Part shown: in pieces, positions 14,957 to 51,251 of the stretch | Layout: every line of letters starts with the position of its first letter | Numbering within the stretch: position 1 is the first letter of the stretch | Assembly (NCBI GenBank): GCA_945863875.1 | Contig: CAMBBS010000013.1 | Coordinates: forward strand, 1-64,000 | Length of the DNA stretch: 64,000 nucleotides | Direction of reading: 5' to 3' | DNA from: Desulfopila aestuarii DSM 18488 | Lineage (GTDB): Bacteria > Desulfobacterota > Desulfobulbia > Desulfobulbales > Desulfocapsaceae | The notes under the pieces: model-generated | What the model was told of the DNA's origin: nothing | Database searches by the model: none | The model's input: the letters and a program-made list of their open reading frames with translations, nothing else | Program-made: the position numbers and the translations under genes

Positions 14957-15595
14957 TCACAGGGCCTCCGCCACGCAAATAACACCCGCATCGGCAAGCT
15001 CTGCCAAAACCTGGACCTGCGATGCGGGATCGACAGGGCGGCTGCCCTGAAGCAGAACGCGAGTTTGAAAACCAAGGGATGCCGCATCGAGCGCGGTATA
15101 TTTGACACAATAGTCCAGGGCCAGACCAACAATGTCCACCTCTTTAATGTTCTGATCCAGAAGGATGGTGCGTAAGCCGGTATCATGTCGCCGCGCATTG
15201 TCGAAAAAGGCCGAATAGGAATCGACGTTGCGGTCCATGCCTTTTTTGACCCGGTGGATCCGGCGTCCTGCGGCCGCCTCTTTTGTTAAAAGTTCTTCAA
15301 TTTCCTCGGCCAGACCTGCTCCTCTCGTCACCGCGACACAATGGTCCGGCCAGAGCATCTGCGGCTGACCGGCAAGCTCACCCAGGGTAAACGGTTCAGC
15401 TCCAGCATGGGTCGAGGCAAAGGACCCATGTCCAGGCGGGTGCCAGTCCTGGGTAACAACCAGAAGATCATAGTCATGCCCGCTGCGCACGAGATCGACG
15501 ACAAAGGGCAGGATTGCATCGCCATCGGGTACCGCCAATGGCCCGCCGGGAAGAAAATCATGCTGTATATCTACCAGCACAAGTGCCCTCTTCAC
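14957..15595 (-). CDS. pncA: Nicotinamidase/pyrazinamidase
   Basis: A 212-residue isochorismatase-fold hydrolase that converts nicotinamide to nicotinate for NAD salvage. The catalytic triad is visible: Asp9 in LVLVDIQHDF, a Lys in VKKGMDRNVDSYSAF near residue 115, and Cys near 158 in GLALDYCVKYTA. The metal site DWHPPGHGSFAS gives the DxHxxxxH ligands. Length and motif spacing fit PncA rather than isochorismatase. It converges with the Fur-like gene (about 22 bases apart). Upstream lies a decayed MscS-like gene on the same strand. Confidence 0.93.
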   Translation of the reverse strand: MKRALVLVDIQHDFLPGGPLAVPDGDAILPFVVDLVRSGHDYDLLVVTQDWHPPGHGSFASTHAGAEPFTLGELAGQPQMLWPDHCVAVTRGAGLAEEIEELLTKEAAAGRRIHRVKKGMDRNVDSYSAFFDNARRHDTGLRTILLDQNIKEVDIVGLALDYCVKYTALDAASLGFQTRVLLQGSRPVDPASQVQVLAELADAGVICVAEAL

Positions 15596-15623
15596 GTTAT
15601 CCTCCTTATCTTATGGAACGTGC

Positions 15624-16440
15624 TTATGGAACGAGCGGCTGCATCTCCTGCCGCCCGCTGTCCTCGAACATCTCCTCCACGGCTATCCTGTCTCCTGCCG
15701 GCCAGTGAAAGGTACGTTGCGGAAAGGATATTTACCAATTGTCCAAGGTTGCCGCATCGACACACCGGCTCATGACTGAGGCTGAGTACTCTGGTTCCGG
15801 GCCGATCTCCCGCCACCCAGTCTCCCTTTTTGCCGGGAAACCAGGGTTTCCCCCGGCGCATACGGCCTGGAAACCATGCCGACAATCTGCTCTATCGGCA
15901 GCCGCAGGTGCATTCCCAGGGTCGGGTTAAACAGACGGCAGAAGAGATGAATGTTTTCAACCTTCCAGGGGACACCTGCAGCAGCAATCTTTCTCCCTCG
16001 CGGACCGAACCAATGTTGAGCATCAGCCGCCCCTGCTGCCAGAGCCTCGGCACAGTCTGGCGTACGGTCCCAAAAAGGCCGAGAAAAAAGATGATGGCCA
16101 TACTGAACAGGAACCAGTCTTCCGCCTCATACAGCACAAAAAAAGACGCCGATAACGCCTGCAACCAAGGTGTGCGCATGCAGGGCCATCAGAAGACACA
16201 AGCCGCGAACACGAAAAAAATCACGAATGGACTTACGGAACCCCTCGACAATACTGCCTTCTCTGTCCTGCATCTGGCGCAGTTCAAGCTAAGTGAGCTC
16301 CAGTTTGTTGCGGATCCTGTTTTCAGTATTGCGCCATTCCGGCAGCAGTTCCTTGATCTGTTTTTTGATGTCCGGATCCTTGGTAACCTCATGCAATCGC
16401 TCTAGCTGAGTGACGGCGTTGGTGGCAACGGGCGTCAAAT
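15624..16440 (-). pseudogene. Remains of a mechanosensitive-channel (MscS-like) membrane protein
   Basis: Minus-strand pieces in different frames line up in one order. They are NAVTQLERLHEVTKDPDIKK (N-terminal soluble part, near 16400), YEAEDWFLFSMAIIFFLGLF (membrane), PRLWQQGRLMLNIGSVREGE, then GVPWKVENIHLFCRLFNP (beta domain), GDWVAGDRPGT and RTFHWPAGDRIAVEEMFEDS, ending at the TAA at 15624. RLMLNIGSVREGE followed by GVPWKVENI is the MscS beta-domain pattern. At least three frame changes separate the parts. The gene ends upstream against the IS605 relic, which may have disrupted it. The frame shifts could partly be sequence errors. Confidence 0.6.
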
Positions 16441-16532
16441 TTGACAAGAACACGCACTAACAATCGACTAAAAAGCAGCATTTCTAGCACTCGGCAGGCA
16501 AAGAATGAGGAAATTTTTGGGCAATTTACCAA

Positions 16533-16576
16533 AAACGCGATGTCTTCCTGTTCGAATCTCGTTCTTTTTCTCCATA
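16533..16576 (-). pseudogene. tnpA remnant, copy 2
   Basis: The minus strand encodes MEKKNEIRTGRHRVF, the TnpA N-terminus of IS200/IS605 elements, and then runs directly into GCGTTTTTGG, the element end. Everything between has been deleted. The ~80 bases around it match 7155-7250 closely, showing that both relics derive from the same IS family. Confidence 0.65.
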
Positions 16577-16950
16577 GACCAAAGTATAATTTACCTTATA
16601 AAGATACGCAAGGCATATAAATAGCGACTGGTTCTCTTTGTCAACAGCCCCGAGATCCATGGAACACCAGGAAATGTCACCGTGTCCAGGCGGGGGGATC
16701 CTTGGCATGTCTCGATTCTCAGACCGAGCGGGAGGCTGTCGAACCAATACATCCATCCGCCTCTTCCGTGGGGATCGACCTGGGCATCGCCAGGTTCGCC
16801 ACCCTCGGTGGTGTGTATCGAGGATGCAAAGATAAGGGATATGTCCAGACGGCATCGGCGACAAGCGAGGCACCAGGTAAGAAACTCCGGGCCAGGTCCC
16901 GTTTGAACCTCTCCCTCCTCGGCCAGGGAGAATGTCGAACAAGCGCGAAA
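16577..16950 (+). pseudogene. Degenerate TnpB remnant, copy 2, with RuvC-I and right-end stem
   Basis: Reading across frames gives GTPGNVTVSRRGDPWHVSI and then VGIDLGIARFATL, the RuvC-I motif of TnpB with its catalytic Asp. The latter part is lost. The segment ends in CCTCCTCGGCCAGGGAGAAT followed by GTCGAA, the right-end stem. Compared with copy 1 (7257-7765), this copy keeps RuvC-I but lacks the C-terminal tail. It abuts the 3' end of the penicillin-binding protein gene at 16992. Confidence 0.68.
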
Positions 16951-19900: not shown

Positions 19901-20042
19901 TGATGAATTTTGCCTGCATGGTGGAAGTTTTAATCTCATAATATCCAACGGCAAGACATGCGGCAGTGATGATCAGCACAAAGGGCCACCAACTTAAGCG
20001 ATGCCGACGTGAAAGGCGCCTTGTTGATTTTTTTTCAATCAT
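16992..20042 (-). CDS. Bifunctional class A penicillin-binding protein-like enzyme
   Basis: A 1016-residue protein. A short cytoplasmic Lys/Arg-rich N-terminus precedes one membrane helix (WWPFVLIITAACLAVGYYEI). The GT51 glycosyltransferase domain shows LLFIENRTLLSD (catalytic Glu) and GGSTLATQMEKF. The transpeptidase domain shows GSTAKLRT (SxxK), YSLN (SxN) and GGKTGTGD (KTG). It would polymerise and cross-link peptidoglycan in the periplasm. The start at 20042 is chosen because the membrane anchor follows at once; the frame stays open 107 codons further upstream to 20366, without any recognisable homology. The C-terminus ends against the IS605 relic, so the last few residues may be altered. 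Confidence 0.88.
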   Translation of the reverse strand: MIEKKSTRRLSRRHRLSWWPFVLIITAACLAVGYYEIKTSTMQAKFISGYAANLRYRVADGASDKIIFPKKGPYDIRLGYVQLPAFLDKLQQNGMVISRQARFSEPLQNYAEKGFHIPYSEKSQAGLHILDATGESMYRMINPKRVYNDFFDIPYKIVQTLLFIENRTLLSDQFPKTNPAVDWGRFAKALVVQAGELVSLDMPAMGGSTLATQMEKFRHSDNGMTVSAKEKLIQMVSASVRAYQDGEDTSLFRRQLVLDYVNSVPLSAAPGFGEVNGLGDGLFVWYGTEFDEMNRLLNLKDPTGADLERQALLIKQVVSLMIAHRRPSFYLVEGRKELAILSNSYVRLLAQNGSISEALSEAAQAQPLFFRNFSNNGAARQIVNNKGVNVVRNRLGPLFATSLYSLDRMDVTVTSTLNSRLQEQVNLYLKNLEKSDVADEYGLVGKYLLTPDQADELSYSFTLFERTPMGNMVRVQTDTTPLPFDINEGSKLELGSTAKLRTLATYLEIIAELHADLAARPQDELKNLMEQTRDTLSRWVGFQLLQNPSLQLKALLEAAMLRPYSAHPGERFFTGGGLHTFGNFRNEDNNRIATVTEALQYSLNLPFVRIMQDIVRYTQASQWENNRQIVIDDNDPRRKEMLDKFIDRESKVFLTRFWNKYRNMNADQRLETLLAGMNPRALRLTIVHRHLLPEADQDAYIRFIRGHLPTSTLTNRQLAAMYEKYQPGSYNLQDMGYLAAVHPLELWLLDYLRRPGDLTLQDAIMKSTEVRREVYGWLMRTKAKNARDSRVRIVLEIDAFSDIHRRWKNMGYPFGHLVPSLATALGSSGDRPAALAELMGIILNDGKRIPTHRFTEVAFARDTPYETIALRPTPKPVQVLRPEIAQVLKETLGKVVSEGTAKRLAQSFQQGDGLPLAIGGKTGTGDNRIINSSSSGHKSSSRTLNRTATFVFYLGDNHFGTLIAFVSGRSANAFSFTSALPLQVLKGMVPVIQPYINTENQKISAIAGATRSPDGG

Positions 20043-20409
20043 CTTGACTTCTGCCGGAGCAAGGCGGGGTGGAAAATTCTTGGTGGATTCGCAATTGACA
20101 TGGAGAGGAATTTTCTCGAAATGTGTCGACAGGTCGTAAGTAAGTTGTGCATTATAACTGTTACCGGGACTGGACCCGATGGTTGGAACGTCCAGGAGTT
20201 CAACCGACACGATTACGTTCTTCTTGCTTATTCTTTCGGCGTGAAATAAATCGACAAGATGAGGAATTTTCATCCGTGCTGGACAAGCTGGAATAATTAC
20301 GGCAAGCATATCCGATCCGCCCTGTTTCGTCAAGATTTGCGGCAAACTACCCAGCGACCATTGCATGTCAGGAAAAGCCTCGCCCCTCTTCTTGTATCAA
20401 ATTTATTTA
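20043..20409. other. Divergent intergenic region between PBP-like and ASKHA genes
   Basis: About 430 bases separate the two start codons. Apart from the promoter-like hexamers at 20410-20437, no gene, repeat or RNA is recognised. Both strands carry open frames running into it, but these lack family similarity and are best regarded as chance extensions. Confidence 0.5.
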
Positions 20410-20437
20410 TTGACTCGATCATCTACATTGTTATGAT
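20410..20437 (+). promoter_or_regulatory. Sigma-70-type promoter for the ASKHA gene
   Basis: TTGACT, a 16-base spacer, then TATGAT. The possible ATG at 20433 lies inside this -10 box, which supports initiation of translation at the later ATG at 20472. Confidence 0.5.
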
Positions 20438-20471
20438 AAAAGAAAACAAGCAACCAACACCCACAAGGCCT

Positions 20472-22388
20472 ATGGAACATACCGTCTCTTTCCTGCCGGA
20501 CAACATTACCGTTCGTGTTTCTCCCGGGGAAAACCTCCTGACCGCGGCTGCCTTGGCCGGGGTCTATATCCCGGCCTCGTGCGGGGGAGACGGCGTGTGC
20601 CGGAAGTGCAAGATCGAACTTGTGCAGGGCGAACTGCACGCGCAGAATACCAGCAGCCTCAGCCAGGGTGAGATCAGCAGGGGCACTCGACTGGCCTGTA
20701 TTTCAACGGTTTTTTCCGATGTGACCATACGTATTCCGGAAATCGTACGGTCAGACGGGACGTCACTCAAAGCAAAACCGAAAACCACCAGGACAATTTC
20801 CACCAGATCGCAGGAAAACCTTGTCGGTACCTGGCAGATAGCCCCCCCGGTTCGTAAACTGTACCTTACACTGCCACCACCGACGCTCGATGACAACATT
20901 CCGGATATGCAGCGTCTGATCAGAGGAATCAGCCGAACCGGGCCGGCGATGCACGAGCCGGATTATGACCATCCGGAGCTTATCCACGACCTGTCGGTTA
21001 CCCTTCGCGAAAGTGACTGGCGGGTGACCGTCATCCTGTTGCAGGGCAAGCTGGCCAATGAACCGGAGCGAATTATTGCCGTTGAACCCGGCGACACCAC
21101 CGACCAGCTGTATGGCCTGGCCCTCGACCTCGGTACGACAACGATCGGCGGTGTGCTCATTGACCTGAACAGTGGCCGGATTATTGCCGAAGCCTCCGCC
21201 TACAACTCGCAGATCGGTTATGGCGAGGATATCATTTCACGGATCATCTACTCGCAACGCACCGGCGGTTTGCGCGCCCTGCAGGAAAAGGCCGTACACA
21301 CAATCAATAACATCATCGAGGAGGTGTGTCGCACCGTCATCATCAGCCCCAGTGATATCAGCTACATTATGGCCGCAGGCAACACGGTGATGGCCCATCT
21401 GCTGCTCGGCATTAACCCAAAATTCATCCGGGAAGCGCCCTACGTCCCAGGCGTCAGTCAATTCCCGCTCACCAAGGCTGCCGCGCTGGGGATCATGGCC
21501 CATCCTTCCGTCCGGCTCTTTCTCTACCCATGCATCGCCTCCTTTGTCGGCGGCGATATTGTTGCCGGGGTTCACGCCTGCAACATGCACAGGAGCGAGA
21601 AGATCAGTCTTTTTATCGATATCGGCACCAACGGAGAGATCGTCGTCGGTAATCGCGACTGGATGGTCTGCGCCGCCTGTTCGGCCGGACCCGCCTTTGA
21701 GGGAAGCGGCATCAAATACGGCATGCGGGCGAGCAGCGGGGCTATCGAAAACGTTCATATCCATCCGGACACCCTGGACCCGATGATCATCACCATCGGC
21801 AACACCAACCCCAGAGGGATCTGCGGTTCCGGAGTGATCGCCATTGTTCCGGAGCTGCTCGAGGCGGGAATCATCGACCGGCGAGGCAAGTTTAACGATC
21901 GTAAAAAACACCACAGGATCAGAAAGGGTGCCGATGGCTGGGAATACGTTATCGCCTGGGCACACGACACGATGATCGGAGAAGATATCGTCATCACCGA
22001 GATCGACCTGGATAACCTGATCCGGGCGAAAGGGGCCATGTTCGCCGGCTGCCAAACCCTGCTCGAATCTGTCGGCATCGGCTTTGCCGAGGTAGAACAG
22101 ATCATTCTGGCCGGTAATTTCGGCGCCCATATAGACCTCGAACGGGCCATCGCCATCGGGTTGCTGCCGGACATCGACAGGGATCGATTCTATTACCTCG
22201 GCAATGCGTCCATGCTCGGCTGCCAGATCAGTCTGACCGATCACATCCGGTTCAGAGAACGAACAGAGGTGCGCAGGATCATGACTAATCTTGAGCTGTC
22301 CGATAACCTCAACTTCATGAACTACTACGTGGCAGCGCTGTTTCTGCCGCACACCGACAGCCGTCTCTTTCCTTCATTATCTTACTGA
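20472..22388 (+). CDS. 2Fe-2S ferredoxin/ASKHA-domain protein (RACo-like corrinoid reactivator)
   Basis: A 638-residue protein. Residues ~1-85 form a plant-type [2Fe-2S] ferredoxin domain with CGGDGVCRKC and a fourth Cys in RLACIS. A linker and the DUF4445/ASKHA ATPase region follow, with ALDLGTTTIGGVLIDL (phosphate-1), LFIDIGTNGEIVVG and GSGVIAIVPELLEAG. This architecture is that of RACo/RamA-type reductive activators, which use ATP to reduce Co(II) corrinoids back to Co(I) on methyltransferases or the corrinoid Fe-S protein. No corrinoid protein or methyltransferase lies in this window, so its partner must be elsewhere. An in-frame upstream ATG at 20433 is less likely. Confidence 0.87.
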   Translation: MEHTVSFLPDNITVRVSPGENLLTAAALAGVYIPASCGGDGVCRKCKIELVQGELHAQNTSSLSQGEISRGTRLACISTVFSDVTIRIPEIVRSDGTSLKAKPKTTRTISTRSQENLVGTWQIAPPVRKLYLTLPPPTLDDNIPDMQRLIRGISRTGPAMHEPDYDHPELIHDLSVTLRESDWRVTVILLQGKLANEPERIIAVEPGDTTDQLYGLALDLGTTTIGGVLIDLNSGRIIAEASAYNSQIGYGEDIISRIIYSQRTGGLRALQEKAVHTINNIIEEVCRTVIISPSDISYIMAAGNTVMAHLLLGINPKFIREAPYVPGVSQFPLTKAAALGIMAHPSVRLFLYPCIASFVGGDIVAGVHACNMHRSEKISLFIDIGTNGEIVVGNRDWMVCAACSAGPAFEGSGIKYGMRASSGAIENVHIHPDTLDPMIITIGNTNPRGICGSGVIAIVPELLEAGIIDRRGKFNDRKKHHRIRKGADGWEYVIAWAHDTMIGEDIVITEIDLDNLIRAKGAMFAGCQTLLESVGIGFAEVEQIILAGNFGAHIDLERAIAIGLLPDIDRDRFYYLGNASMLGCQISLTDHIRFRERTEVRRIMTNLELSDNLNFMNYYVAALFLPHTDSRLFPSLSY

Positions 22389-22534
22389 TCCCCGCCCGCT
22401 CGTCCCGTTTTTACACCAGGCTGCGGCCCTGCAGCCGTCATATCCCTCCGCATGCCAACATTTTTTTCGCGGGGACGAGAGGAAAATCTTCAGTACATAT
22501 TTCGTCATTCGATGTACCCTGTTATCTGCTTTTC

Positions 22535-22550
22535 TGGACCAAGTATTGCA
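22535..22550 (+). promoter_or_regulatory. Putative sigma-54 promoter of the kinase/regulator operon
   Basis: TGGACCAAGTATTGCA has the invariant GG and GC separated by ten bases, as in -24/-12 elements. It lies about 72 bases upstream of the histidine kinase start, which would allow autoregulation by the NtrC-type partner. Confidence 0.42.
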
Positions 22551-22621
22551 AAGCAATCAACCAGGCCGCAGATAAAAAACTGTTAATTCTCAAAACCCTC
22601 AGCTCGACGCCCCGGTAGGTC

Positions 22622-24751
22622 ATGATCCCAAGGACAAAAAAACACATTATCACCCTGGCCGTCCTGACAGCGGTTATTTTCGTCGTTGCCGGCATCAATT
22701 ATCGAATCACCCAGCATATAGTTGAAAGAACCATCGCCGCCCAGCAGGAAGATCTGGCAATCAAGGCGGCGGATACGGTGGAAATGTGGCTCGAGCAGCA
22801 GATGAAAATTCTCACCGCCACCGCCGACTCGGTCGTGCTCGGTTCCCTCGGGCAGAACGAAGAGACGATGAAACCACTCAAAATGGCCATGAAAGCCGGT
22901 CATTTCACCGATGTGTATATCGGCAGAAAAGACGGCGTGCTGCTCGACGGTGCGGACTGGCTGCCGCCCAACGGCTATGATCCCCGCAACCGTCCATGGT
23001 ACCGACGGGCCGTTGCGGTTGGGGATATGAGTTTTACCACGCCGTATATTGACTTGGTGACCAACAAGATGGTCATTGCCCTGGTGAAACCTCTGATCGC
23101 CGATGGGCAAATCGTCGGCGTCATGGGCGCGGATACGGTCCTCGACAGCCTGGTGCGGAACGTTTTAAACCTCAAGGTCGGCGAGTCCGGTTACGGATTT
23201 ATTGTCGAAAGAAACGGCACCATCCTCGTCCATCCCAGCGAGGAGTATGTCATGCGCGAAAAAATACAGAATATTGAACTTGATCTGGCGGACAAACTGG
23301 ACCGCTTCATCAGCGGCGATATCGGCACGGTCACCTACCTCGGCAAAGACCGGCAGAAACATGTGCTGTCCTTTAGCCTCATTGCCAATTCCGACTGGTT
23401 CATGTGCGTGACCGCCCCCCGCGACGAGGCCTATTCCCTCACCCGCAAGACGACGATGATCTTTGCCACGGAAATAGCCCTCAGGGTTTTAGGCATCCTG
23501 GCGCTTATTGCCCTGGTGGTGGTCAGCGGCAGCGGCCTGGTGCTGTTTTTTTTCAGCAAGAGATACAGTTCGGCCATCCAGCAGCACCAGGAAGAGCTGA
23601 CCGGCATAAACAAGGATCTCGAATGGAACATTATTAAAAGAAAGGAGGTCGAGACCTATTACCAGACCTTATTTAATGTGGCAAATGACGCCATTCTCAT
23701 CAGCAAGGGGAGCCGCATCAGTGAATGCAACCAGAAGACCATGGAGGTCTTCGGCCTTGCCAAAGAAGTGATGCTCGGCAAGAGCATGCTCGACCTCTCC
23801 CCCGTATATCAGCCGGATGGCGAGCTGAGCAGAGAGAAGCTGCAGGACATCCTGCACGCCTCCCATAAAGGGGAGCAGCAGATCTTCAGATGGTCGTTCA
23901 TCAGGGCTGACGGCGTGGAATTTCCCGCCTCGATCAGTCTGAAGATCTTCCGGCTCAACGATGAGGAGCTCACCCTGTCAAGCATCAGGGATATCTCCAA
24001 ACGGGTCGATGCCGAAGGACAGCTGATGCAGGCGCAGAAGATGGCCGCGGTCGGCGAAATGCTGGCGATCATCGCCCACCAGTGGCGCCAGCCCTTAAAT
24101 ACCCTTTCGACCTATATTTCCAGCCTACAGGCGGCGCAATATAATGATATGCTCAACAAGGCGTTTGTCGAAAAACTGGTGTCCGGCGCCAATGGCCAGA
24201 TTCATTTCATGTCGAAAACGATTGACGACTTCAGGAATTTTTTTAAGCCGTCCAAGGCGAAAGGACCCGTCGATGTGCTGGAAGTGGTGATCAGTGCGGT
24301 CAAGCTTATGGAGGCGCAGATGAAACATGGCGGCATCTCGCTGACCGTCAACAATAAGAGCGGATCGAGCTCCCTGCTGGTCTTTGGCTATCGGGGCGAA
24401 TTTGTCCACGTCCTGGTGAATATTATCGCCAACGCCAAGGATGCGATCAGCCAGCATGCCGCCGAAGCCGATGAGCAGCCGGCAGCCAAAAAAATTGCCA
24501 TCACCGTCAGCACCGACGAACAGACGGTTTTGCTCCACATCAGTGACAGCGGCGGCGGCATTCCCGAGCACCTGCTGCTGCAGATATTCAATCCGTACTT
24601 CACCACCAAAGGTGCATCGTCCGGCACCGGCATGGGGCTGTATATGGCCAAAATGATCGTGGAAAAAGAAATGAACGGCGAACTGCTGGCGGAAAATACC
24701 GAGACGGGCGCGAAATTCACCATCAAACTGAAAAAAATGATAACGGACTAG
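22622..24751 (+). CDS. Membrane sensor histidine kinase with dCache and PAS domains
   Basis: A 709-residue protein. The first membrane helix is at residues 8-28. A periplasmic double-Cache sensor (~30-275, with NRPWYRRAVAVGDMSFTTPY and GESGYGFIVERNGTILVHP) is followed by a second membrane segment (~280-312), a PAS domain (~345-455), a HisKA segment with phospho-acceptor His in AIIAHQWRQPLN (near 485) and a HATPase domain ending in GTGMGLYMAKMIVEKEM. It lies 5 bases from the NtrC-type response regulator, forming a two-component pair. NRPWYRRA matches the dCache_1 pattern often found in receptors of amino acids, including branched-chain ones. This fits control of the downstream Liv operon, as an inference. 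Confidence 0.93.
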   Translation: MIPRTKKHIITLAVLTAVIFVVAGINYRITQHIVERTIAAQQEDLAIKAADTVEMWLEQQMKILTATADSVVLGSLGQNEETMKPLKMAMKAGHFTDVYIGRKDGVLLDGADWLPPNGYDPRNRPWYRRAVAVGDMSFTTPYIDLVTNKMVIALVKPLIADGQIVGVMGADTVLDSLVRNVLNLKVGESGYGFIVERNGTILVHPSEEYVMREKIQNIELDLADKLDRFISGDIGTVTYLGKDRQKHVLSFSLIANSDWFMCVTAPRDEAYSLTRKTTMIFATEIALRVLGILALIALVVVSGSGLVLFFFSKRYSSAIQQHQEELTGINKDLEWNIIKRKEVETYYQTLFNVANDAILISKGSRISECNQKTMEVFGLAKEVMLGKSMLDLSPVYQPDGELSREKLQDILHASHKGEQQIFRWSFIRADGVEFPASISLKIFRLNDEELTLSSIRDISKRVDAEGQLMQAQKMAAVGEMLAIIAHQWRQPLNTLSTYISSLQAAQYNDMLNKAFVEKLVSGANGQIHFMSKTIDDFRNFFKPSKAKGPVDVLEVVISAVKLMEAQMKHGGISLTVNNKSGSSSLLVFGYRGEFVHVLVNIIANAKDAISQHAAEADEQPAAKKIAITVSTDEQTVLLHISDSGGGIPEHLLLQIFNPYFTTKGASSGTGMGLYMAKMIVEKEMNGELLAENTETGAKFTIKLKKMITD

Positions 24752-24756
24752 AAGGC

Positions 24757-26187
24757 ATGATTACCTCGAAAATGAAAAACTGTCAGATTCTGCTAGTCGA
24801 CGATGAACCTGCGGAACTTGAAGCATACAGCCTGCTGCTCACCTCCCTCGGCATGAAGAATGTCCGGACCCTCAGCGACAGCCGCCATGTCCTGGCCACG
24901 CTGGAAAGCATGCAGTCGCCGGTGCTGTTTCTCGATCTGAATATGCCGCACATGAGCGGTCAGGAGGTTTTGCGGCAGCTGAAAATACACAGGCCGCAGA
25001 TCCCGGTCATCATCGTCACCGCCGACTCGGAGATCGAAACAGCCGTCGAGTGTTTGAAGCTCGGTGCACAAGACTATCTGGTGAAACCGATCGATTTAAA
25101 AATGTTCAGCTCGGCCCTGCGCAACGCCCTGGAGATCGGTCTGCTGCGCAATGAAGTGATGTCGCTGAAGGGGATTTCTTTCAGCAGCAGGGAGTACAGC
25201 AACAAGGCCTTTGACCGCATCGTCACCAAGAGTCCCCTGATGTTCGGCCTCTTCCAGTACATTGAGTCGATTGCCACTAGCGGCCTGCCGACGCTGATCC
25301 TTGGAGAGACCGGATCGGGCAAGGAACTCATCGCCAAGGCCATTCACGAGGTAAGCGGCCTGGCGGGTGAGTTTGTCGCGGTCGACATCTCCGGCCTCGA
25401 CGACACCCTGTTCTCCGACACCCTGTTCGGTCATGCCAGAGGGGCCTATACCGGTGCCGAGACGGTACGCGCCGGAATGATCGAAAAGGCCGCCGACGGG
25501 ACCATTTTTCTCGATGAAATCGGCGATCTCAGTGAGGTCTCCCAGGTAAAACTTTTGCGCCTGCTCCAGGAAAAGATCTATTATCCCCTGGGCTCGGATC
25601 AACCGAAACAATGCCATGCACGCATCATTACCGCCGCCAATAAGGATCTCACCAGGCTCGCCGGCCAGGATGGCGAGTTCAGGATGGATCTGTACTATCG
25701 ACTCAGTACCCACCTGCTCAAGGTACCGCCGCTGCGTGACCGGCGGGAAGACATTCCTCTCCTCGTCGAGCATCTGATAGCCGATGGCGCTGCGACAATG
25801 CATAAAGACATCCCGACAATCAGCCAGCAGGCCATGAACCTGCTGCTGCGTCACCCATTCTGGGGGAATATCCGGGAATTGAAGGCGTATATCTCCGATG
25901 CCGTGGCCCGCTGTACCCATGGCCACATCCAGGAACATCTTATCGCCGAGCGACTCGCCGGGGTGACCCCAATAACCTCCAGTGTACTCGGAAAGACCAA
26001 TCCCCTGGAGGCTTTGTTCGGCCACTTCCCTACCCTGGACGAACTGGCCGACTATGCGGTTGAAATGGCTTTGAATGTCTCGGAAAACAACCAGAGTCAG
26101 GCCTCGCGCCTGCTGGGGGTTTCCCGGCAGGCCCTGAACAAGAGAGTAAAAAAGAAAACGGCAACCTCTATTGACGATGGTCTCTGA
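24757..26187 (+). CDS. Sigma-54-dependent response regulator (NtrC/DctD type)
   Basis: A 476-residue protein. An N-terminal receiver domain has the phospho-acceptor Asp in LFLDLNMPHMSG (about residue 60) and the Lys in YLVKPID. The AAA+ domain has Walker A GETGSGKE (~183), the sigma-54 contact loop GAYTGA, Walker B GTIFLDEIGDL and the Arg finger region YRLSTHLLKVPPLRDR. A Fis-like HTH ends the protein (NNQSQASRLLGVSRQALNKR). The Phe of the canonical GAFTGA is Tyr, a tolerated variant. It is cotranscribed with the kinase and placed upstream of a sigma-54 promoter with four GTCAAC/GTTGAC half-sites, so it is the obvious candidate activator of the following ABC operon. Confidence 0.94.
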   Translation: MITSKMKNCQILLVDDEPAELEAYSLLLTSLGMKNVRTLSDSRHVLATLESMQSPVLFLDLNMPHMSGQEVLRQLKIHRPQIPVIIVTADSEIETAVECLKLGAQDYLVKPIDLKMFSSALRNALEIGLLRNEVMSLKGISFSSREYSNKAFDRIVTKSPLMFGLFQYIESIATSGLPTLILGETGSGKELIAKAIHEVSGLAGEFVAVDISGLDDTLFSDTLFGHARGAYTGAETVRAGMIEKAADGTIFLDEIGDLSEVSQVKLLRLLQEKIYYPLGSDQPKQCHARIITAANKDLTRLAGQDGEFRMDLYYRLSTHLLKVPPLRDRREDIPLLVEHLIADGAATMHKDIPTISQQAMNLLLRHPFWGNIRELKAYISDAVARCTHGHIQEHLIAERLAGVTPITSSVLGKTNPLEALFGHFPTLDELADYAVEMALNVSENNQSQASRLLGVSRQALNKRVKKKTATSIDDGL

Positions 26188-26234
26188 TGGGCATTCTTTC
26201 CATGCGCCATTGTTGTCGCCTTATCGAACAAATT

Positions 26235-26282
26235 GTCAACGCTGGTTTACAGCGTCAACCAGGGTTGACGCCATGGGTTGAC
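26235..26282. promoter_or_regulatory. Candidate enhancer sites for the NtrC-type regulator
   Basis: Four half-sites occur within 48 bases: GTCAAC at 26235 and 26254, GTTGAC at 26264 and 26277. The middle two form a perfect 9-bp inverted repeat, GCGTCAACC AG GGTTGACGC. The cluster is about 80-130 bases upstream of the sigma-54 promoter, the usual distance for an enhancer. Confidence 0.6.
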
Positions 26283-26363
26283 AGCCCCTGTGTCAAGGGC
26301 GGCCAGAGTGCTGATTTCCCCCTGCAGTTCCCGAAAAACTCTCGCCCAGGTAAATAGGAACCG

Positions 26364-26379
26364 TGGCACACAAATTGCG
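26364..26379 (+). promoter_or_regulatory. Sigma-54 promoter of the branched-chain amino-acid-type ABC operon
   Basis: TGGCACACAAATTGCG, with GG and GC ten bases apart, is close to the TGGCACG-N4-TTGC consensus. Transcription would begin near 26390, giving a leader of about 125 bases before the substrate-binding protein start. Confidence 0.75.
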
Positions 26380-26516
26380 TTAATGTCCGACTAGAAGAGT
26401 CTGCACCAAGGAAAAGTCTGCATCGTTTTCCCGGTGCGGCAAACTCCAATTCATCAACAGTGCCTGGTGAATGTATCCACGCCTATCAGGGCGGAAAATC
26501 AAACCGAGAGGAACCT

Positions 26517-27752
26517 ATGCACATCTTACGCACACTTGCTATCCCAGCCCTGGCAATGTCTTTACTTGCCGGCTCGTATGCCACCGGTCATGCCGAAAAC
26601 GTCAAGATCGGCAATATCATTCCCCTTTCCGGCCCGTCGGCGACTCTCGGCCAACAGGGCAAGGCGGCACGTGAAATGGCCGTGGAAGAGATCAACGCCG
26701 CCGGCGGTATCCAGTCGCTCGGGGGCGCGAAATTCGAACTAGTCTTTGCCGACTCCGAGTCCAAACCGGAAAAGGGCGTTGCCGAGGCCGAGCGTCTTAT
26801 AAACACCGAAAAGGTGCATGTCCTCACCGGCTGCTGGAACAGCGCCGTGACCTATCCGACCACGGCGGTTGCCGAGCGTTATGGCATTCCCTTTGTCGTG
26901 CCGGTCTCCGTCTCTGATAAAATTACCGAACAGGGCTTTAAAACCGTCTTCAGAATCGCCGCCAAGGACAGCTGGTGGACCCGCGATCAGTTCTCTTTCT
27001 TAAAAGATATGGAAGCAGAATTCGGTACAAAGGTAGAACGTATCGCCTTTGTCTACGAGAATGGCGACTGGGGTAAAGGCTTTGCCGGACAGTGGAAAGA
27101 CCTGGCCGAAAAGGGCGGTTATAAAGTTGTCCTGGATGAACCATACCCATCAACAGCAACCGATTTGAGCCCGGTGGTTCAGAAAATCCGCCGCTCAAAA
27201 GCCGATGTGCTGATGCTCGTTTCCAATGCCGCCGATGCCATTCTGCTGACCAATACCCTCGCCGATTATAAAGTCAATTTGAAGGCAATTATCGCCAGCG
27301 GCGGCGGCCATGCCGACCCTTCCTTTCTCAAAACCACCGGCAAGAATGCACAGTATCTCTTTGATATCGTTGAGTGGGAAACCGACGTCAACAAGCCCGG
27401 GGCAAAAGAGACCAATGACAAATACAAGGCCAAATACGGCCAGAATCTGACCGGGGAAGCGGTTGACGCCTATGTTGCCATGTATGTGTTGAAAGACGCC
27501 CTGGAGCGTGCCGCATCCCTTGAGCCGGAAAAGATCAGAGAAGCACTGGCCGCCACCAATCTCTCCTCCGGTCCCGGCATGATTGTCGGCTACGATGCGG
27601 TCAAATTTGACAAGACCGGCCAGAATGAAAACGCCTCACTGGTCATGGTCCAGGTTAATGATGTCGGCAATGGCCTGGAGCGGGTCACCATCTGGCCGAA
27701 ATCAGCACGCCGGGCCGGGTACACCCCGGTATTCCCGATGCCGAACAAGTAG
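26517..27752 (+). CDS. Branched-chain amino-acid-type ABC transporter substrate-binding protein
   Basis: A 411-residue periplasmic type I binding protein (LivJ/LivK-like, Peripla_BP_6). The signal peptide is MHILRTLAIPALAMSLLAGS, followed by a likely cleavage after GHA. The mature part starts NVKIGNIIPLSGPSATLGQQ, the usual opening of the family, and contains LTGCWNSAVTYPTTAVAERY in the ligand cleft. The start at 26517 has GAGAGG upstream. It is the first gene of the operon and is followed by a strong terminator-like hairpin before livH. Ligands of this large family range from Leu/Ile/Val to urea, amides and aromatic acids, so the exact substrate is open. Confidence 0.92.
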   Translation: MHILRTLAIPALAMSLLAGSYATGHAENVKIGNIIPLSGPSATLGQQGKAAREMAVEEINAAGGIQSLGGAKFELVFADSESKPEKGVAEAERLINTEKVHVLTGCWNSAVTYPTTAVAERYGIPFVVPVSVSDKITEQGFKTVFRIAAKDSWWTRDQFSFLKDMEAEFGTKVERIAFVYENGDWGKGFAGQWKDLAEKGGYKVVLDEPYPSTATDLSPVVQKIRRSKADVLMLVSNAADAILLTNTLADYKVNLKAIIASGGGHADPSFLKTTGKNAQYLFDIVEWETDVNKPGAKETNDKYKAKYGQNLTGEAVDAYVAMYVLKDALERAASLEPEKIREALAATNLSSGPGMIVGYDAVKFDKTGQNENASLVMVQVNDVGNGLERVTIWPKSARRAGYTPVFPMPNK

Positions 27753-27782
27753 ACACTGCAGCATACTTTCGTTTTGTTCATA

Positions 27783-27829
27783 CCGGAGTAGAGGGGATCA
27801 GCCTCTGCTCCGGATGCTTCCTTTTTTTG
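27783..27829 (+). terminator. Hairpin plus T-tract between the binding protein and livH
   Basis: CCGGAGTAGAGG pairs with CCTCTGCTCCGG across a short loop (one G-U pair), and seven Ts follow 8 bases later. As an intrinsic terminator inside the operon it would give partial read-through, so that more binding protein than permease is made. Confidence 0.75.
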
Positions 27830-27848
27830 TTTTTCCAGGGAGACAATC

Positions 27849-28736
27849 ATGCTCTATATCATTGAGGACTCGATCAACGGCATCCTGATGGGATCTATCT
27901 ATGGCCTGACGGCCATGGGGCTGACAATCATCTTCGGCGTGCTGAAAGTGGTCAACTTTGCCCATGGGTCGATGTTAATGGTGGGAATGTACCTGGCCTA
28001 CTGGACGGTGACCCTTTCCGGCATTCACCCCTATCTGGCAATTGTCCTCGTTGCCCCGGCAATGTTTTTCTTCGGCTATTACCTGCAGAATATTGTTATA
28101 AAGCCAATTTTCATTGCTGAAAAGAATGTTCGCGAACCCCTCACCGTCATCATTGTCACGACGGGGATCTGGTATATTCTCGACAATATGACCCTGCTGA
28201 TTTTCGGGCCGCAGTATCGTTCCCTGTCCGACAATCCGCTAAGCGGTCAAATGCTGGAAATCGGGCAGATGTTTATCTCCGTACCCAAGCTGTATGGCTG
28301 TATTACCGCTCTGATCACCGCGCTGGGCATTTACTGGTTCTTTCAGAAAACCGACATGGGCCGGGCGATCCGAGCGACAAGCATGGACCGGGAAGCGGCC
28401 AGTCTCATGGGGATAAACCAGTACAAGATTTATAATGTGGCCTTCGGTATCGGGGCGGCGACGGCAGGCATTGCCGCGGTCACCCTCGTCCCGTTTTACA
28501 ATATCTTTCCGACGGTAGGTGTCCTGTTCGATATAAAAGGCTTTATCATCGTCGTCCTCGGTGGGCTCGGCTCCATTGGCGGGGCCCTGGTCGGCGGCAT
28601 TATTATCGGCCTGATCGAATCCGTCGGGCCGCAATTTATGACAGCCACCTGGACCGAGGCAATTGTCTACGGACTGTTTCTTGTCGTGCTGTTCGTCAAG
28701 CCTTCAGGGTTATTTGGCCAGAAACATGACTGGTAA
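27849..28736 (+). CDS. livH: Branched-chain amino-acid-type ABC permease LivH
   Basis: A 295-residue inner-membrane permease with about eight hydrophobic helices. The N-terminus ends in GLTAMGLTIIFGVLKVVNFAHG, the LivH hallmark. The C-terminal half has VVLGGLGSIGGALVGGIIIGLIE, the EAA-like loop and following helix. CAGGGAGACAATC precedes the ATG. It pairs with LivM to form the transmembrane pore and is 26 bases from livM. Confidence 0.94.
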   Translation: MLYIIEDSINGILMGSIYGLTAMGLTIIFGVLKVVNFAHGSMLMVGMYLAYWTVTLSGIHPYLAIVLVAPAMFFFGYYLQNIVIKPIFIAEKNVREPLTVIIVTTGIWYILDNMTLLIFGPQYRSLSDNPLSGQMLEIGQMFISVPKLYGCITALITALGIYWFFQKTDMGRAIRATSMDREAASLMGINQYKIYNVAFGIGAATAGIAAVTLVPFYNIFPTVGVLFDIKGFIIVVLGGLGSIGGALVGGIIIGLIESVGPQFMTATWTEAIVYGLFLVVLFVKPSGLFGQKHDW

Positions 28737-28761
28737 CCGATAAATCAAGGACAACTATCCA

Positions 28762-29766
28762 ATGAATCCAAAACAAATCAATAAAATAGCCCTGATAGCT
28801 ATCCTGCTTATCGCCTTTGGCCTGCCGCTGGTTATACGGAGTGCGACCTATCTGCACATACTGGTACTGCTGTTCTTCTATGCCTATCTGACGACCAGCT
28901 GGAATCTTGTCGGCGGCTTTGCCGGCGTGCTGCCGCTCGGTCATGCCGCCTTTGTCGGCATCGGCGCCTACTCCTCGACCATTCTCTTTCTGCAATACGG
29001 CATCAGTCCCTGGATCGGCATGCTGGTCGGCGGGGTGCTGGCAACCTTTGCCGGGGTGTTGATCGGTCTGCCGACCTTTAAGATGCGGGGGGCATACTTC
29101 GCCCTGGCCACCATTGCCTTTGCCGAAGGGTTTCGGGTCATCGTCGAAAATGTCGACTATCTCGGCCCATTCAAGATAAACGGTCCGCGGGGCCTGCAGA
29201 TCCCGCCCCTGGATACCGGGCTGGCAAATTTCCTGTTCACGACCAAAGAGCCCTACTATTACATCATTCTTATCATGCTCATTGCCGTACTGATTCTCAC
29301 CTATGTTATTTCCCGGTCAAAACTGGGTTACTATCTCAATGCCGGCGGGGAGGAACCGGAGGCGGCCATGGCGCTCGGAGTCAACGTGGCCAGAGCCAAA
29401 CTGATCGCCATGGCGATGAGTTCCTTTCTGACCGCCCTGGCCGGGACCTTTTATGCCCAGTTCACCCTCTACATCCACCCGAAGAGTATCATCTCCCTCG
29501 ACCTGTCGTTTGAAATCGCCTTTATCGCTCTGATCGGCGGACGCGGTTCGATCGCCGGGCCGATTCTTGGCGCACTCCTGCTCAGGCCAGTCGGCGATTT
29601 CTCGCGTATCTATTTCGGCGATACCCTGCCGGGCATGCACCTGGTCATCTTCGGCCTGGTCCTGATTCTGGTGATGCATTACCAGCCTCGCGGCCTGCAG
29701 GAGCCGCTCACCCGGTTATATGCAAATCTGGTGCAGCGCATAACCCAAAAAACGACTGGGAGATAA
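28762..29766 (+). CDS. livM: Branched-chain amino-acid-type ABC permease LivM
   Basis: A 334-residue permease. The typical pattern TTSWNLVGGFAGVLPLGHAAFVG near residue 50 and the C-terminal ALIGGRGSIAGPILGALLL are diagnostic of LivM. It is predicted to have about ten membrane helices. The gene is followed after 5 bases by livG, so translation is probably coupled. Confidence 0.94.
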   Translation: MNPKQINKIALIAILLIAFGLPLVIRSATYLHILVLLFFYAYLTTSWNLVGGFAGVLPLGHAAFVGIGAYSSTILFLQYGISPWIGMLVGGVLATFAGVLIGLPTFKMRGAYFALATIAFAEGFRVIVENVDYLGPFKINGPRGLQIPPLDTGLANFLFTTKEPYYYIILIMLIAVLILTYVISRSKLGYYLNAGGEEPEAAMALGVNVARAKLIAMAMSSFLTALAGTFYAQFTLYIHPKSIISLDLSFEIAFIALIGGRGSIAGPILGALLLRPVGDFSRIYFGDTLPGMHLVIFGLVLILVMHYQPRGLQEPLTRLYANLVQRITQKTTGR

Positions 29767-29771
29767 GAGAC

Positions 29772-30497
29772 ATGATTCTTCTTGAAGTAAGCGGTATGAC
29801 AAAACAGTTTGGCGGCCTAAGGGCGGTCGATTCTTTGGATCTAAGCATAGAAAAGGGCCAGATTTTTGGTCTGATCGGACCAAACGGCGCGGGAAAATCA
29901 ACTGCCTTCAATTGTATCGCCGGGGCCTTTGCCCCGACGGCCGGCGTCATTACCTTCAACAATGAAAAGATAAACGGTCAGAAGCCTTGGGATCTGTGCA
30001 AGAAAGGATTGGCCCGTACCTTCCAGATCGTCAAGCCATTTGCTTCCAAAAGCGTGTTATACAACGTTATGGTCGCAAGTTTTGTGACGACCAACAGCCG
30101 TTCGGTGGCCGAGGAAAAAGCCATCAAGGTTCTCGAATCTCTCAGTTTCTCCGACAAGAAAGATATCCTGTCCGGCAACCTGACTATCGCCGACCGGAAA
30201 AGACTGGAAATTGCCCGAGCCCTGGCCACGGAACCGAAACTCCTGCTGCTCGACGAGGTTATGGCCGGTCTGCGCCCCGCCGAAGTAGACGACATGGTCC
30301 AGGTTTTGAAAACCATTCGCGATCAGGGCACGACTATTTTTGTCATCGAACACATCATGCGGGCCATCATGGCCCTGTCCGATCGAATAGTCGTCATCCA
30401 GTTCGGCAAAAAAATTGCCGAAGGGACACCGAAAGAAATCGCCAACAACGAAAATGTTATCAAAGCCTACCTGGGAGAAGATTATGCCGTTGCTTGA
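29772..30497 (+). CDS. livG: Branched-chain amino-acid-type ABC ATPase LivG
   Basis: A 241-residue ATPase. Walker A is GPNGAGKST (~37-45). The signature region reads LSGNLTIADRKRLEIARALA; the usual LSYGQQ is replaced by NLTIADRKRLE, a degenerate signature motif. Walker B is LLLLDEVMAGL and the switch His is FVIEHIM. It overlaps livF by 14 bases. The weakened signature is worth noting, but many Liv-type ATPase pairs tolerate asymmetry. Confidence 0.93.
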   Translation: MILLEVSGMTKQFGGLRAVDSLDLSIEKGQIFGLIGPNGAGKSTAFNCIAGAFAPTAGVITFNNEKINGQKPWDLCKKGLARTFQIVKPFASKSVLYNVMVASFVTTNSRSVAEEKAIKVLESLSFSDKKDILSGNLTIADRKRLEIARALATEPKLLLLDEVMAGLRPAEVDDMVQVLKTIRDQGTTIFVIEHIMRAIMALSDRIVVIQFGKKIAEGTPKEIANNENVIKAYLGEDYAVA

Positions 30498-31194
30498 AGT
30501 GAACAACATTGACGTTTCCTATGGCGATGTCCAGGTTATCTTCGATCTTTCACTCAAAGTCGAAAAAGGGGAAGTCGTCAGTATTATCGGCGGCAATGGT
30601 GCAGGAAAATCGACCCTCTTACGAACGATTTCCGGTCTGATGTCGACCTCGACAGGGAGCATCAGCTTTGCTGATCAGCCGATCCACAACCATACCCCCG
30701 AGGACATAGTCACCTGCGGCATTATCCACGTTCCAGAAGGACGTCGCCTGTTTCCGCTGATGAGTGTCAAGGATAACCTGATTGTCGGGGCCTATAACAA
30801 ACGCGCTAAAAAGGATACCCTGCTCACCCTGAAAAAAGTCTACGAACTACTGCCTCGCCTGCAAGAACGGGAAAGTCAGATTGCCATGACCCTCTCCGGA
30901 GGGGAACAACAAATGGTGGCGATCGGCCGCGGCCTTATGGCCCAGCCGCATCTGCTCATGCTCGATGAACCGTCCCTGGGTCTGGCACCGATTCTGATCA
31001 AGGACATTTTCGAGACAGTGCGCAAGATCGCCGATCAGGGCACCACCGTGCTCATGGTCGAGCAGGATGTGAAACATTCTCTTAGTTTAAGTGACCGTGG
31101 CTACGTACTGGAACATGGCCGGGTGGTCATGGAGGGCAAAGCCGTCGACCTGATAGACGATCCGCACGTGAAAGAAGCGTATCTGGGCATTTAG
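30484..31194 (+). CDS. livF: Branched-chain amino-acid-type ABC ATPase LivF
   Basis: A 236-residue ATPase with Walker A GGNGAGKST, the intact signature LSGGEQQMVAIGRGLM, Walker B LLMLDEPSLGLAP and the switch His region VLMVEQDVKHSL. The start at 30484 is chosen because GGGAGAAG lies immediately upstream and the protein then aligns with LivF; the frame itself is open 23 codons earlier inside livG. It is the last gene of the operon, and the next sequence on the opposite strand is a broken symporter gene. Confidence 0.94.
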   Translation: MPLLEVNNIDVSYGDVQVIFDLSLKVEKGEVVSIIGGNGAGKSTLLRTISGLMSTSTGSISFADQPIHNHTPEDIVTCGIIHVPEGRRLFPLMSVKDNLIVGAYNKRAKKDTLLTLKKVYELLPRLQERESQIAMTLSGGEQQMVAIGRGLMAQPHLLMLDEPSLGLAPILIKDIFETVRKIADQGTTVLMVEQDVKHSLSLSDRGYVLEHGRVVMEGKAVDLIDDPHVKEAYLGI

Positions 31195-31211
31195 CCGGGT
31201 GGCGTTTTTTG

Positions 31212-32468
31212 CTAGAGAATCTGCAGCAAAAGGTAGATGACCGGGATGAGATAGAGCAGGGCTAGGATGAATGTGGAGTGCGCGTATTTCTTTAAGAAAA
31301 CGAGAATAAAAAGGCCGACAAAGACTGCCGAGCCGCGCAGGCCCATGGACATGTAACTCCACTTGAGAATTGTTGAATCAAGACCGGTGAAGACCAGCAT
31401 CGAGGCGGGCAACAGGACGACCATTGCACAGATTCTCAGCAGTTTGACCGGCGGGATCACGCCGAGAAAGCCCTTGTGCGCAGAGAGAAAATCACTGTAA
31501 ATATTCGTCGTTACCCCGAGGACCAGATCGGCCCCCGTACCGAGTACAATCAGCAGAATCCCCGCAGCAAAGAGTGCGGCAATCACTGGGGGAAAAGTGT
31601 GGTAGAAAAAAAAGGCCCCGCTTGGGCCGGGTTATGCGCCAGCTCCGGGAAATGAGCCCGGAGATACAGGCCGACAATTATCCCTAACACCCCGGCAGGG
31701 GGAATGACTGCCGCACGCAAGAAAGCGCCGTTTCGCGCCTCCCGGCCATTTTTTAGCCAAGAAAATTGCCTGCAGATAGATTTGCGTAGAAAGAACGCCG
31801 ACGAGCATGGAAAACATATCGATAGCCGCCGGCTTGATACCATAATCGACAAAGCTCAGCATGTTGACATCCTGGGGAAGATGATTGACGATATTTAGCC
31901 ATCCTCCACCTTTATAGAGCGACATTGCCGCACTCAGCACCATGATGATGTGGAGCATGAAAAATTTAATTTTTCCGATCAGTACCATGCTGATCAGTAC
32001 GGAAAGACTATCGGCGAAGCCGAAAACCGACGACAGAATAGCAATCGAAGCGAGGAACTGGCCAACGACGTGGATAAACATGCCGGTGGAATTGAGAGCA
32101 CTGCTGTAATACCTGAAGCGCTATCCAAAGAACTTTCCGAGGTATTCGGAAACAGTGACCACGCCCTCTTCTCTCAGGGCTTTGGCAAAAAAACAGCCGA
32201 GAATAAAGCACGAGACACCGCTGCCAAAGGTGAAAATACCCGCGGAAATACCATCGCTATATGCCGCCTGGACCGTTCCGATCGTCGAAACCCCGGCAAC
32301 CAGGGTACCAATGATTACCCAGGACACGCCGGTGCAGGACAGCGAGCGGTTGGCGACAGAGAAAACAGCCGCCGAATGAGCTCCTGTCGACCGCCTGACG
32401 GTTGCCAGGGTGATAAGGGTAAAGGTAATGAGGAAGGTTATTTTATACAGCATGTCTTTCCCTATCAT
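31212..32468 (-). pseudogene. Sodium:solute symporter (SSS family), interrupted by about three frame shifts
   Basis: Minus-strand pieces read in order: N-terminus MIGKDMLYKITFLITFTLIT, then TGVSWVIIGTLVAGVSTIGTVQAAYSDG, the SSS substrate/Na+ site region. After a shift near 32100 come GQFLASIAILSSVFGFADSL and NMLSFVDYGIKPAAIDMFSM. After another near 31745 comes GAFLRAAVIPPAGVLGIIVG. After a third near 31590 comes VIAALFAAGILLIVLGTGAD up to the C-terminus. Together they give a complete ~415-residue SSS transporter. Two of the breaks sit at or near homopolymers (eight A at ~31607, six T at ~31750), so sequencing error is possible. It is adjacent to the AOR-gabT operon, so an amino-acid or GABA substrate would make sense (inference). 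Confidence 0.7.
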
Positions 32469-32568
32469 TCCAGCAAGTCAGTTGCTGCTCCTGCCCTGCT
32501 GGAGTGTAATTCAGTGATCCAGTCCGTGAAGCCCTGCCCTGGTGATGAGGGAAAACTTGGCCTGGAGA

Positions 32569-34335: not shown

Positions 34336-34380
34336 CTGTTTACCTCGCTGGTGTCTATGGTCCTGCTGTTATGCATTAAA

Positions 34381-34426
34381 CAACCAACTCGCCCCTCGAA
34401 AAGAGGATTTCCGAGCGAGCTGGTTG
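34381..34426 (-). repeat. Stem-loop between gabT and its AOR gene
   Basis: CAACCAACTCGC and GCGAGCTGGTTG form a 12-bp inverted repeat with one mismatch, separated by 22 bases. There is no T-tract, so an mRNA-processing or stability element is more likely than a full terminator. Confidence 0.55.
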
Positions 34427-34441
34427 AACGGAAACGATCTC

Positions 34442-51225: not shown

Positions 51226-51251
51226 AAGGGGAAAACGGAAACTGCCGGGGA

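Follow-up and report, generated by a model that had tools for sequence, protein, structure and literature searches.

How is the importer operon at 26517-31194 of a 64,000-nucleotide stretch of Desulfopila aestuarii DSM 18488 (contig CAMBBS010000013.1 of assembly GCA_945863875.1; the whole stretch is called the window below) switched on, and by which ligand? The operon encodes a binding protein and livHMGF-like components, and is preceded by genes for a sensor histidine kinase and an NtrC-type response regulator, an array of GTCAAC/GTTGAC half-sites and a sigma-54 promoter element (Table 1). An earlier note, made from the sequence alone, had read these parts as a complete sigma-54 circuit whose sensor and importer could share a ligand. 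Our sequence comparisons suggest that a sigma-54 two-component switch is dedicated to this one import operon, a reading of the circuit as a whole, ligand apart, that we hold with a probability of about 0.85; the circuit is very probably of the DctBD/AauSR type. The source genome comprises 4.69 Mb in 93 contigs (98.5% complete), and contains one match to the sigma-54 activator-interacting domain (Sigma54_AID).

Array and promoter of the importer operon

The gap between the regulator and binding-protein genes is 329 bp long. Half-sites GTCAAC start at 26235 and 26254, and half-sites GTTGAC at 26264 and 26277, so that the array consists of a perfect palindrome, a weaker palindrome 19 bp upstream and an extra half-site downstream. 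The hexamer occurs 48 times in the window, against about 31 expected. Four hexamers within 42 bp (start to start) were found only at 26235-26282, the next-tightest four in the window spanning 585 bp; the four half-sites and the perfect 9-bp inverted repeat named in the earlier note are confirmed. A search of the genome for the 20-bp palindrome, which that note had called for, found it to be unique, the sole other match at up to 3 mismatches being C1:250191 (2 mismatches), within a 567-codon open frame. This frame is acetolactate-synthase-like by eye. Apart from its own reverse complement, the 35-bp array core had two other genome matches at 3 mismatches and none below. In its own genome, the array is by these matches a predicted single-target site, and the palindrome was rejected as a genome-wide regulon marker because the array is unique there. 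Among 14 regulator-positive genomes, the array pattern at up to 3 mismatches gave 66 matches, 33 at known arrays (with palindromes counted on both strands, and including the additional array that G003 and G004 each have ahead of a chemoreceptor gene) and 33 elsewhere, compared with 47 matches of a reversed-pattern control; 12 of the 14 genomes carried a single array.

The promoter element TGGCACACAAATTGC starts 153 bp ahead of the binding-protein gene and matches TGGCAC-N5-TTGC at all 10 specified bases. Two exact matches were found on both strands of the window, against 0.14 expected, the second being at 51252. What had been described as a near-consensus -24/-12 site thus proved to be an exact consensus match, and its distance from the array is conserved.

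Table 1. Features of the locus and its surroundings, in window coordinates.
Feature	Position	Strand	Basis
Candidate second -24/-12 element TGGACCAAGTATTGC ahead of the kinase gene	22535-22549	+	Match at chance level for the window (2 mismatches)
Sensor histidine kinase: periplasmic dCache_1, PAS, HisKA, HATPase_c	22622-24751	+	Pfam, dCache_1AA residues, fold match
NtrC-type response regulator: Response_reg, Sigma54_activat, HTH_8	24757-26187	+	Pfam
Predicted upstream activating array GTCAAC-N13-GTCAAC-N4-GTTGAC-N7-GTTGAC	26235-26282		Conservation, co-occurrence with regulator, unique in genome
Perfect 9-bp inverted repeat GCGTCAACC-AG-GGTTGACGC, putative core operator	26252-26271		Arms 26252-26260 and 26263-26271
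-24/-12 sigma-54 promoter TGGCACACAAATTGC (predicted start near 26390)	26364-26378	+	Sequence match, conservation
Periplasmic substrate-binding protein, Peripla_BP_6 (HAAT type)	26517-27752	+	Pfam, NCBIfam
LivH/UrtB-like permease	27849-28736	+	Pfam, NCBIfam
LivM-like permease	28762-29766	+	Pfam, NCBIfam
LivG-like ATPase	29772-30497	+	Pfam, NCBIfam
LivF-like ATPase	30484-31194	+	Pfam, NCBIfam
Aldehyde:ferredoxin oxidoreductase beside GabT	32569-34335	-	AFOR_N, AFOR_C
4-Aminobutyrate transaminase (GabT), likely functional partner; not behind array here	34442-35749	-	TIGR00700
1-mismatch -24/-12 element TGGTACTGCTTTTGC just upstream of GabT	35806-35820	-	Sequence match
PAS-type sigma-54 activator	43375-45126	-	Divergent from the kinase gene, or ahead of GabT, in several relatives

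The array follows the regulator across related genomes. A regulator search of 57 genomes (own included) found 23 with a match at E<=1e-100, eight of them (own included) with at least 57% identity. In all eight of these closest orthologs, the regulator gene ends in, or is followed by, GTCAAC-N13-GTCAAC-N4-GTTGAC-N6/7-GTTGAC. The regulator match of G003 extends beyond the stop codon of the gene; array and promoter are both present at this locus. Co-occurrence was then scored in 242 genomes of the order, with the regulator taken at E<=1e-140 and the array at up to 1 mismatch. The regulator was present in 13 genomes and the array in 15, all 13 among the 15 (13/13 regulator-positive versus 2/229 other genomes, Fisher 9e-20). 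The two regulator-negative matches (G118, G235) lack the palindrome and any module protein on their 3-kb stretches, and look like chance.

These two comparisons are the unbiased tests; the sets of array loci were partly found by the array pattern, and their counts for the first three half-sites are biased. Scanning the genome_contigs collection with those three half-sites gave 43 stretches, of which 18 have the kinase and/or regulator and two more come from genomes with the module on another contig (BRH_c16a, Malonomonas). The other 23 have no orthologous kinase or regulator, three of them showing only 33-37% matches to a regulator or activator. Named carriers of the array are Desulfogranum marinum, Desulfopila aestuarii, Desulfosediminicola flagellatus, Desulfocicer vacuolatum and Desulfamplus, together with metagenome-assembled genomes of Geobacteraceae, Desulfuromonadales and Malonomonas rubra. 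Although the scan pattern did not include it, the fourth half-site follows the third after 6 or 7 bp and has no mismatch in 21 of 22 loci. This count omits L068 and L083, whose arrays fit the spacing or the direction of GabT less well; the fourth half-site is present in L083 and absent at this spacing in L068.

The promoter holds its distance from the array. The 24 array loci gave 25 placements, in which the best -24/-12 site 60-230 bp downstream of the array had 0 mismatches in seven, 1 in 12, 2 in three, 3 in two and 4 in one (mean 1.12; shuffled sequences, 3.49). Counted from the start of the array, the 19 sites with no more than 1 mismatch fall at 101-166 bp, and the placement with 4 mismatches is the other strand of L068, the GabT-facing strand of which has 1.

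A second -24/-12-like site before the kinase gene had also been noted. A site with 2 mismatches is indeed present at 22535, but it is by itself indistinguishable from chance, the window containing 77 such matches at up to 2 mismatches against 72 expected. The nearest relative, Desulfopila sp. IMCC35006 (G005), which like Desulforhopalus singaporensis (G011) belongs to the same genus by its placement, has a 1-mismatch site at the aligned position. The best site within 200 bp of the kinase gene varies in position and quality among 20 orthologs; eight (own included) have a site with P<=0.05, based on single-base shuffles, at 36-177 bp, and in two of these eight the site is identical.

Sensor kinase and regulator

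Domain content and gene order bear out a kinase and NtrC-type regulator upstream of an ATP-binding cassette (ABC) operon, the regulator gene beginning 5 nt past the kinase gene. The predicted phosphorylated residue of the kinase is His486, in the sequence HQWRQPLN, and is conserved in 20/20 orthologs, although the HisKA score (24.8 bits) is just below the Pfam cut-off of 26.9. The regulator contains the loop GAYTGA; the GAYTGA/GAFTGA loop and the receiver Asp are conserved in 19/19 aligned orthologs, and the Fis-type helix-turn-helix (HTH) is strongly conserved among these 19; a C1 paralogue, translated in an incorrect frame, was excluded.

The sensor domain carries the complete dCache_1AA motif (Y119, R124, W126, Y127, Y142, D171), the positions of which are given in PctA numbering as Y121, R126, W128, Y129, Y144 and D173 (PMC10104139). 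Five of the six (Y121, R126, W128, Y144 and D173) are invariant in 20/20 orthologs, while Y129 is Tyr in 17 and Phe in three, in support of the proposal that this dCache domain is of the amino-acid-binding type. R126 is described as bonding the carboxylate of the ligand and as not conserved in amine sensors (PMC10104139). Since this position is kept, an amino acid is expected as the ligand, rather than a bare amine such as putrescine. An AlphaFold2 model of the sensor (mean pLDDT confidence score 88.5) matched PctA, PctB, CtaA, Mlp24 and Mlp37, with VIA Z up to 24.4 for PctA; the match to PctC with 4-aminobutyrate (GABA) had VIA Z 21.5 and 2.5 A over 209 residues. By this modeling, the fold alone does not discriminate between candidate ligands.

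The nature of the ligand

All parts of a HAAT-type importer are present, namely Peripla_BP_6, two BPD_transp_2 permeases and two ABC ATPases (Pfam). The genes around it offer a further guide to its substrate. A GabT match is present in 12 of the 13 regulator-positive genomes, compared with 12 of the 229 other genomes of the order, and within the family in 10/11 regulator-positive genomes versus 11/67 others. The binding protein (E<=1e-120) was found in 12/242 genomes, all of them regulator-positive. The window GabT scored above the cut-off of TIGR00700 (541.8 bits versus 506.65) and below that of NF005376 (553 versus 676). GabT and aldehyde:ferredoxin oxidoreductase are neighbors in 12 of 15 loci with a readable flank, in one of these with only a 36%-identical oxidoreductase; the adjacency is missing in L068, L083 and L160, and three further loci are cut. 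In three relatives (L066, L068, L083), GabT is itself the gene directly behind the array, with a -24/-12 site facing it that is exact in L066 and has 1 mismatch in L068 and 2 in L083. A glutamate dehydrogenase gene follows GabT in L083, and would recycle the transaminase product.

Because GabT co-occurs with the regulator and sometimes comes next behind the array, the ligand was narrowed to GABA or another omega-amino acid. On balance, these gene associations favor GABA or one of the omega-amino acids close to it, for example 5-aminovalerate or beta-alanine. Putrescine is degraded to succinate by way of GABA. The gene set of the window suggests this same route, in which case the kinase and importer would be there for GABA from outside the cell. 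Further along, at 46756-55373, lie genes for a TetR-type regulator, a putrescine aminotransferase, another aldehyde:ferredoxin oxidoreductase, a ThiS-like small protein and a PotABCD-like transporter. The aminotransferase (47546-49003) is above the cut-off of NF008570 and below that of TIGR03372; for the transporter, which has two BPD_transp_1 permeases, the best NCBIfam models are PotA and PotD, both below cut-off. The exact -24/-12 element at 51252, TGGCACTGGATTTGC, stands ahead of potA of this potABCD-like operon.

Several observations weigh against this picture of a sigma-54 circuit responding to GABA. On the side of the circuit, G230 and G011 have no convincing -24/-12 behind the array (3 mismatches each), and G169, the chemoreceptor locus of G003 and the GabT locus L083 have 2 mismatches at best. 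The two elements of L068 point in opposite directions: the spacing of the array fits on the strand leading away from GabT and not on the other, and the -24/-12 is found only towards GabT. The pre-kinase site at 22535 is weak in its own genome and unproven, and the p-values for co-occurrence are too small because related genomes are non-independent. On the side of the ligand, all five importer proteins fall below the NCBIfam cut-offs of every model listed; among these, the best model for the binding protein is a branched-chain one (111 of 477 bits), and for the first permease the urea-type UrtB (165 of 250 bits). The sensor is nearer to the broad PctA than to the GABA-specific PctC, by both sequence and fold. 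GabT lies away from the array in its own genome, the module of G208 comes with no match to GabT, and GabT occurs in 12 genomes that lack the regulator.

The first alternative accepts the circuit as real but takes an ordinary alpha-amino acid as the ligand shared by sensor and importer, be it a branched-chain one, alanine or a broad range. By sequence and by fold, the sensor is best matched by domains of the PctA and Mlp24/Mlp37 types, whose structures were solved with alpha-amino acids, the two best solved relatives of the binding protein are named Leu/Ile/Val-binding proteins, and the importer genes have liv-like names. However, the LivJ/LivK-type and related NCBIfam models are far under their cut-offs (NF011933 111/477, NF008011 123/379, NF008450 114/366, NF008449 223/362 and NF008626 249/441 bits), and Atu2422 is a GABA binder of the HAAT fold. 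The co-occurrence of GabT with the regulator (the profile covered GabT alone) and its place next behind the array in three relatives also speak against an alpha-amino acid, and the sensor fold, too, has known GABA binders (PctC, PMC6974571). We consider this alternative unlikely, though a serious competitor. The structure of the binding protein was set aside as a ligand guide, being a poor model (mean pLDDT 66.4).

A less probable alternative is that the kinase reads the ligand-loaded binding protein or transport activity instead of the amino acid itself. The kinase and binding-protein genes are close together, and such activation is described as known for other kinases (PMC11113362). Yet all six direct-binding motif positions are retained, and D. 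marinum (G150) keeps the sensor although its array is followed by a TRAP operon and its genome gave no match to the binding protein. For AgtS of Pseudomonas aeruginosa, a comparable arrangement, no such interaction was found (PMC11113362). Together these points make indirect sensing improbable, direct binding of an amino acid remaining the preferred reading.

It is very improbable that the inverted repeat serves to terminate transcription of the regulator gene, or is bound by some unrelated factor, and that the -24/-12 match arose by coincidence: the repeat does sit just behind the regulator stop codon and overlaps a minus-strand terminator-like hit (26259-26235), but it has a loop of just 2 nt and no T-run after it on the plus strand, the fourth half-site is exact in nearly all loci although it lies outside the palindromes, the array follows the regulator across the 242 genomes, and arrays in G003 and G004 also stand before chemoreceptor genes, away from the regulator. 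An Rfam search of 20000-36000 gave 0 matches and a terminator scan no plus-strand hit at the palindrome, and the palindrome was on these results rejected as an RNA element or terminator.

Variable transporters behind the array

The gene next to the array differs between relatives. At 24 array loci, it belongs to a HAAT importer in 16, a TRAP importer in two (D. marinum and D. flagellatus), GabT in three, a chemoreceptor in two (G003, G004) and a membrane protein in one. The last case is Desulforhopalus singaporensis (G011), whose HAAT copy is on another contig without an array; a by-eye reading of the membrane protein as an SSS symporter was dropped, since no Pfam family was found in the 78 residues before the contig end. 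Two near-identical contig ends of Malonomonas, when pieced together, place the array with a TRAP operon on one side (L089) and GabT on the other (L083). From these gene orders, the sensor-and-site pair appears to be kept in relatives even where the importer type is replaced.

It is tempting to take the sensor-operator module as the conserved unit and the transporter as exchangeable. In Desulfobulbales, Desulfobacterales and Desulfuromonadales-type bacteria alike, one kinase-regulator pair with a fixed array would then have maintained a regulon for omega-amino acids (GABA), with its target swapped between HAAT ABC, TRAP and perhaps symporter, and extended in some lineages to GabT and chemoreceptors. 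We put this forward tentatively, at slightly less than even odds. If true, sulfate reducers would own a dedicated GABA-sensing and -oxidizing system, putrescine-fed and using aldehyde:ferredoxin oxidoreductases.

Second copies of the array were seen upstream of methyl-accepting chemotaxis proteins in two relatives (L036 19554, minus strand; L074 1053, plus strand). This placement suggests that chemotaxis is tied to the same signal as the array circuit. L036 (G004) also encodes, at 15494-16741 directly behind livF, a protein with dCache_1 and HAMP and without a recognized output domain.

Comparison with known systems and proposed mechanism

The locus has the features of DctBD/AauSR-type systems: a Cache kinase with HisKA/HATPase, a regulator with receiver, sigma-54 AAA+ and Fis-type HTH domains, and palindromes plus a -24/-12 element before a transporter. 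In Pseudomonas, AauS/AauR likewise pairs a kinase with an NtrC-type, Fis-HTH regulator and controls an amino-acid ABC importer, AatJQMP, via RpoN (PMC7962211). There, too, a palindrome whose halves are 4 bp apart precedes a -24/-12 element, which is 131-144 bp from the binding-protein gene (PMC7962211); the distance here is 153 bp. The operators differ (TTCGG-N4-CCGAA versus GTCAAC-N4-GTTGAC), as do the importer, which is here of HAAT type with no evidence for glutamate or aspartate, and the hosts, here sulfate reducers and relatives. DctB/DctD, for C4-dicarboxylates, also combines a periplasmic-sensing kinase with an NtrC-type regulator and differs in ligand class. A single DctBD drives both a symporter and a TRAP transporter in P. 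aeruginosa (PMC7962211); the transporter type behind the array varies in much the same way, but between species. Architecture and predicted mechanism are already known from AauSR-AatJQMP and DctBD, and the exchange of transporters behind a constant array is the added interest.

For the presumed ligand class, a close parallel is AgtS/AgtR-AgtABCD of P. aeruginosa, in which a two-component system neighbors an ABC importer that takes up GABA and 5-aminovalerate; both of these compounds, and beta-alanine, act as inducers (PMC11113362). This system differs in that the AgtS sensor is annotated SBP_bac_3 and bound no small ligand tested, and in that its binding proteins are of the SBP_bac_8 family (PMC11113362); the sensor here is dCache_1 with an amino-acid motif. 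The GABA chemoreceptor PctC has a dCache domain of the same fold, in which an Arg contacts the carboxylate and two Asp the amine (PMC6974571). Their counterparts here are R124, D144 and D171, invariant in 15 aligned sensors. PctC is, however, a chemoreceptor with only ~25% identity to this sensor, and PctA matches better. We found no description of this operator or circuit in a search limited to open-licence papers without their supplements. In word counts of the main texts of two Desulfovibrio regulome papers, GTCAAC and GTTGAC were absent from PMC4641369 and GTCAAC from PMC3333781.

We propose that the periplasmic dCache domain, which has the motif for it, binds an amino acid directly. The kinase would then autophosphorylate at His486 and, as in its families, pass the phosphate to the receiver of the NtrC-type regulator. 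The active regulator would assemble on the conserved array and, looping over ~100 bp, drive sigma-54 RNA polymerase at the predicted promoter, yielding transcripts for the binding protein and livHMGF. The importer may in turn feed GabT and aldehyde:ferredoxin oxidoreductase, for the conversion of GABA to succinate. For nutrient regulation in sulfate reducers, the circuit offers a regulator, an operator, a promoter and a probable ligand that can be tested, and the conserved array provides a marker for the regulon in new genomes, with hints as to which transporters share a substrate. If the ligand is GABA, amine and GABA oxidation would be a regulated energy source in these anaerobes.

Neighboring genes

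The element TGGTACTGCTTTTGC upstream of GabT may respond not to the array regulator but to the PAS-type sigma-54 activator encoded at 43375-45126. Directly upstream of the kinase gene, at 20259-22388 (plus strand), lies a gene for a RACo/AcsV-like corrinoid activator, for which the flanks read at seven orthologous loci gave no match. The segment at 31212-32468 (minus strand), which separates livF from the aldehyde:ferredoxin oxidoreductase gene, contains three open frames, the first of which (32121-32468) matches Pfam SSF, and looks like a broken sodium:solute symporter gene.

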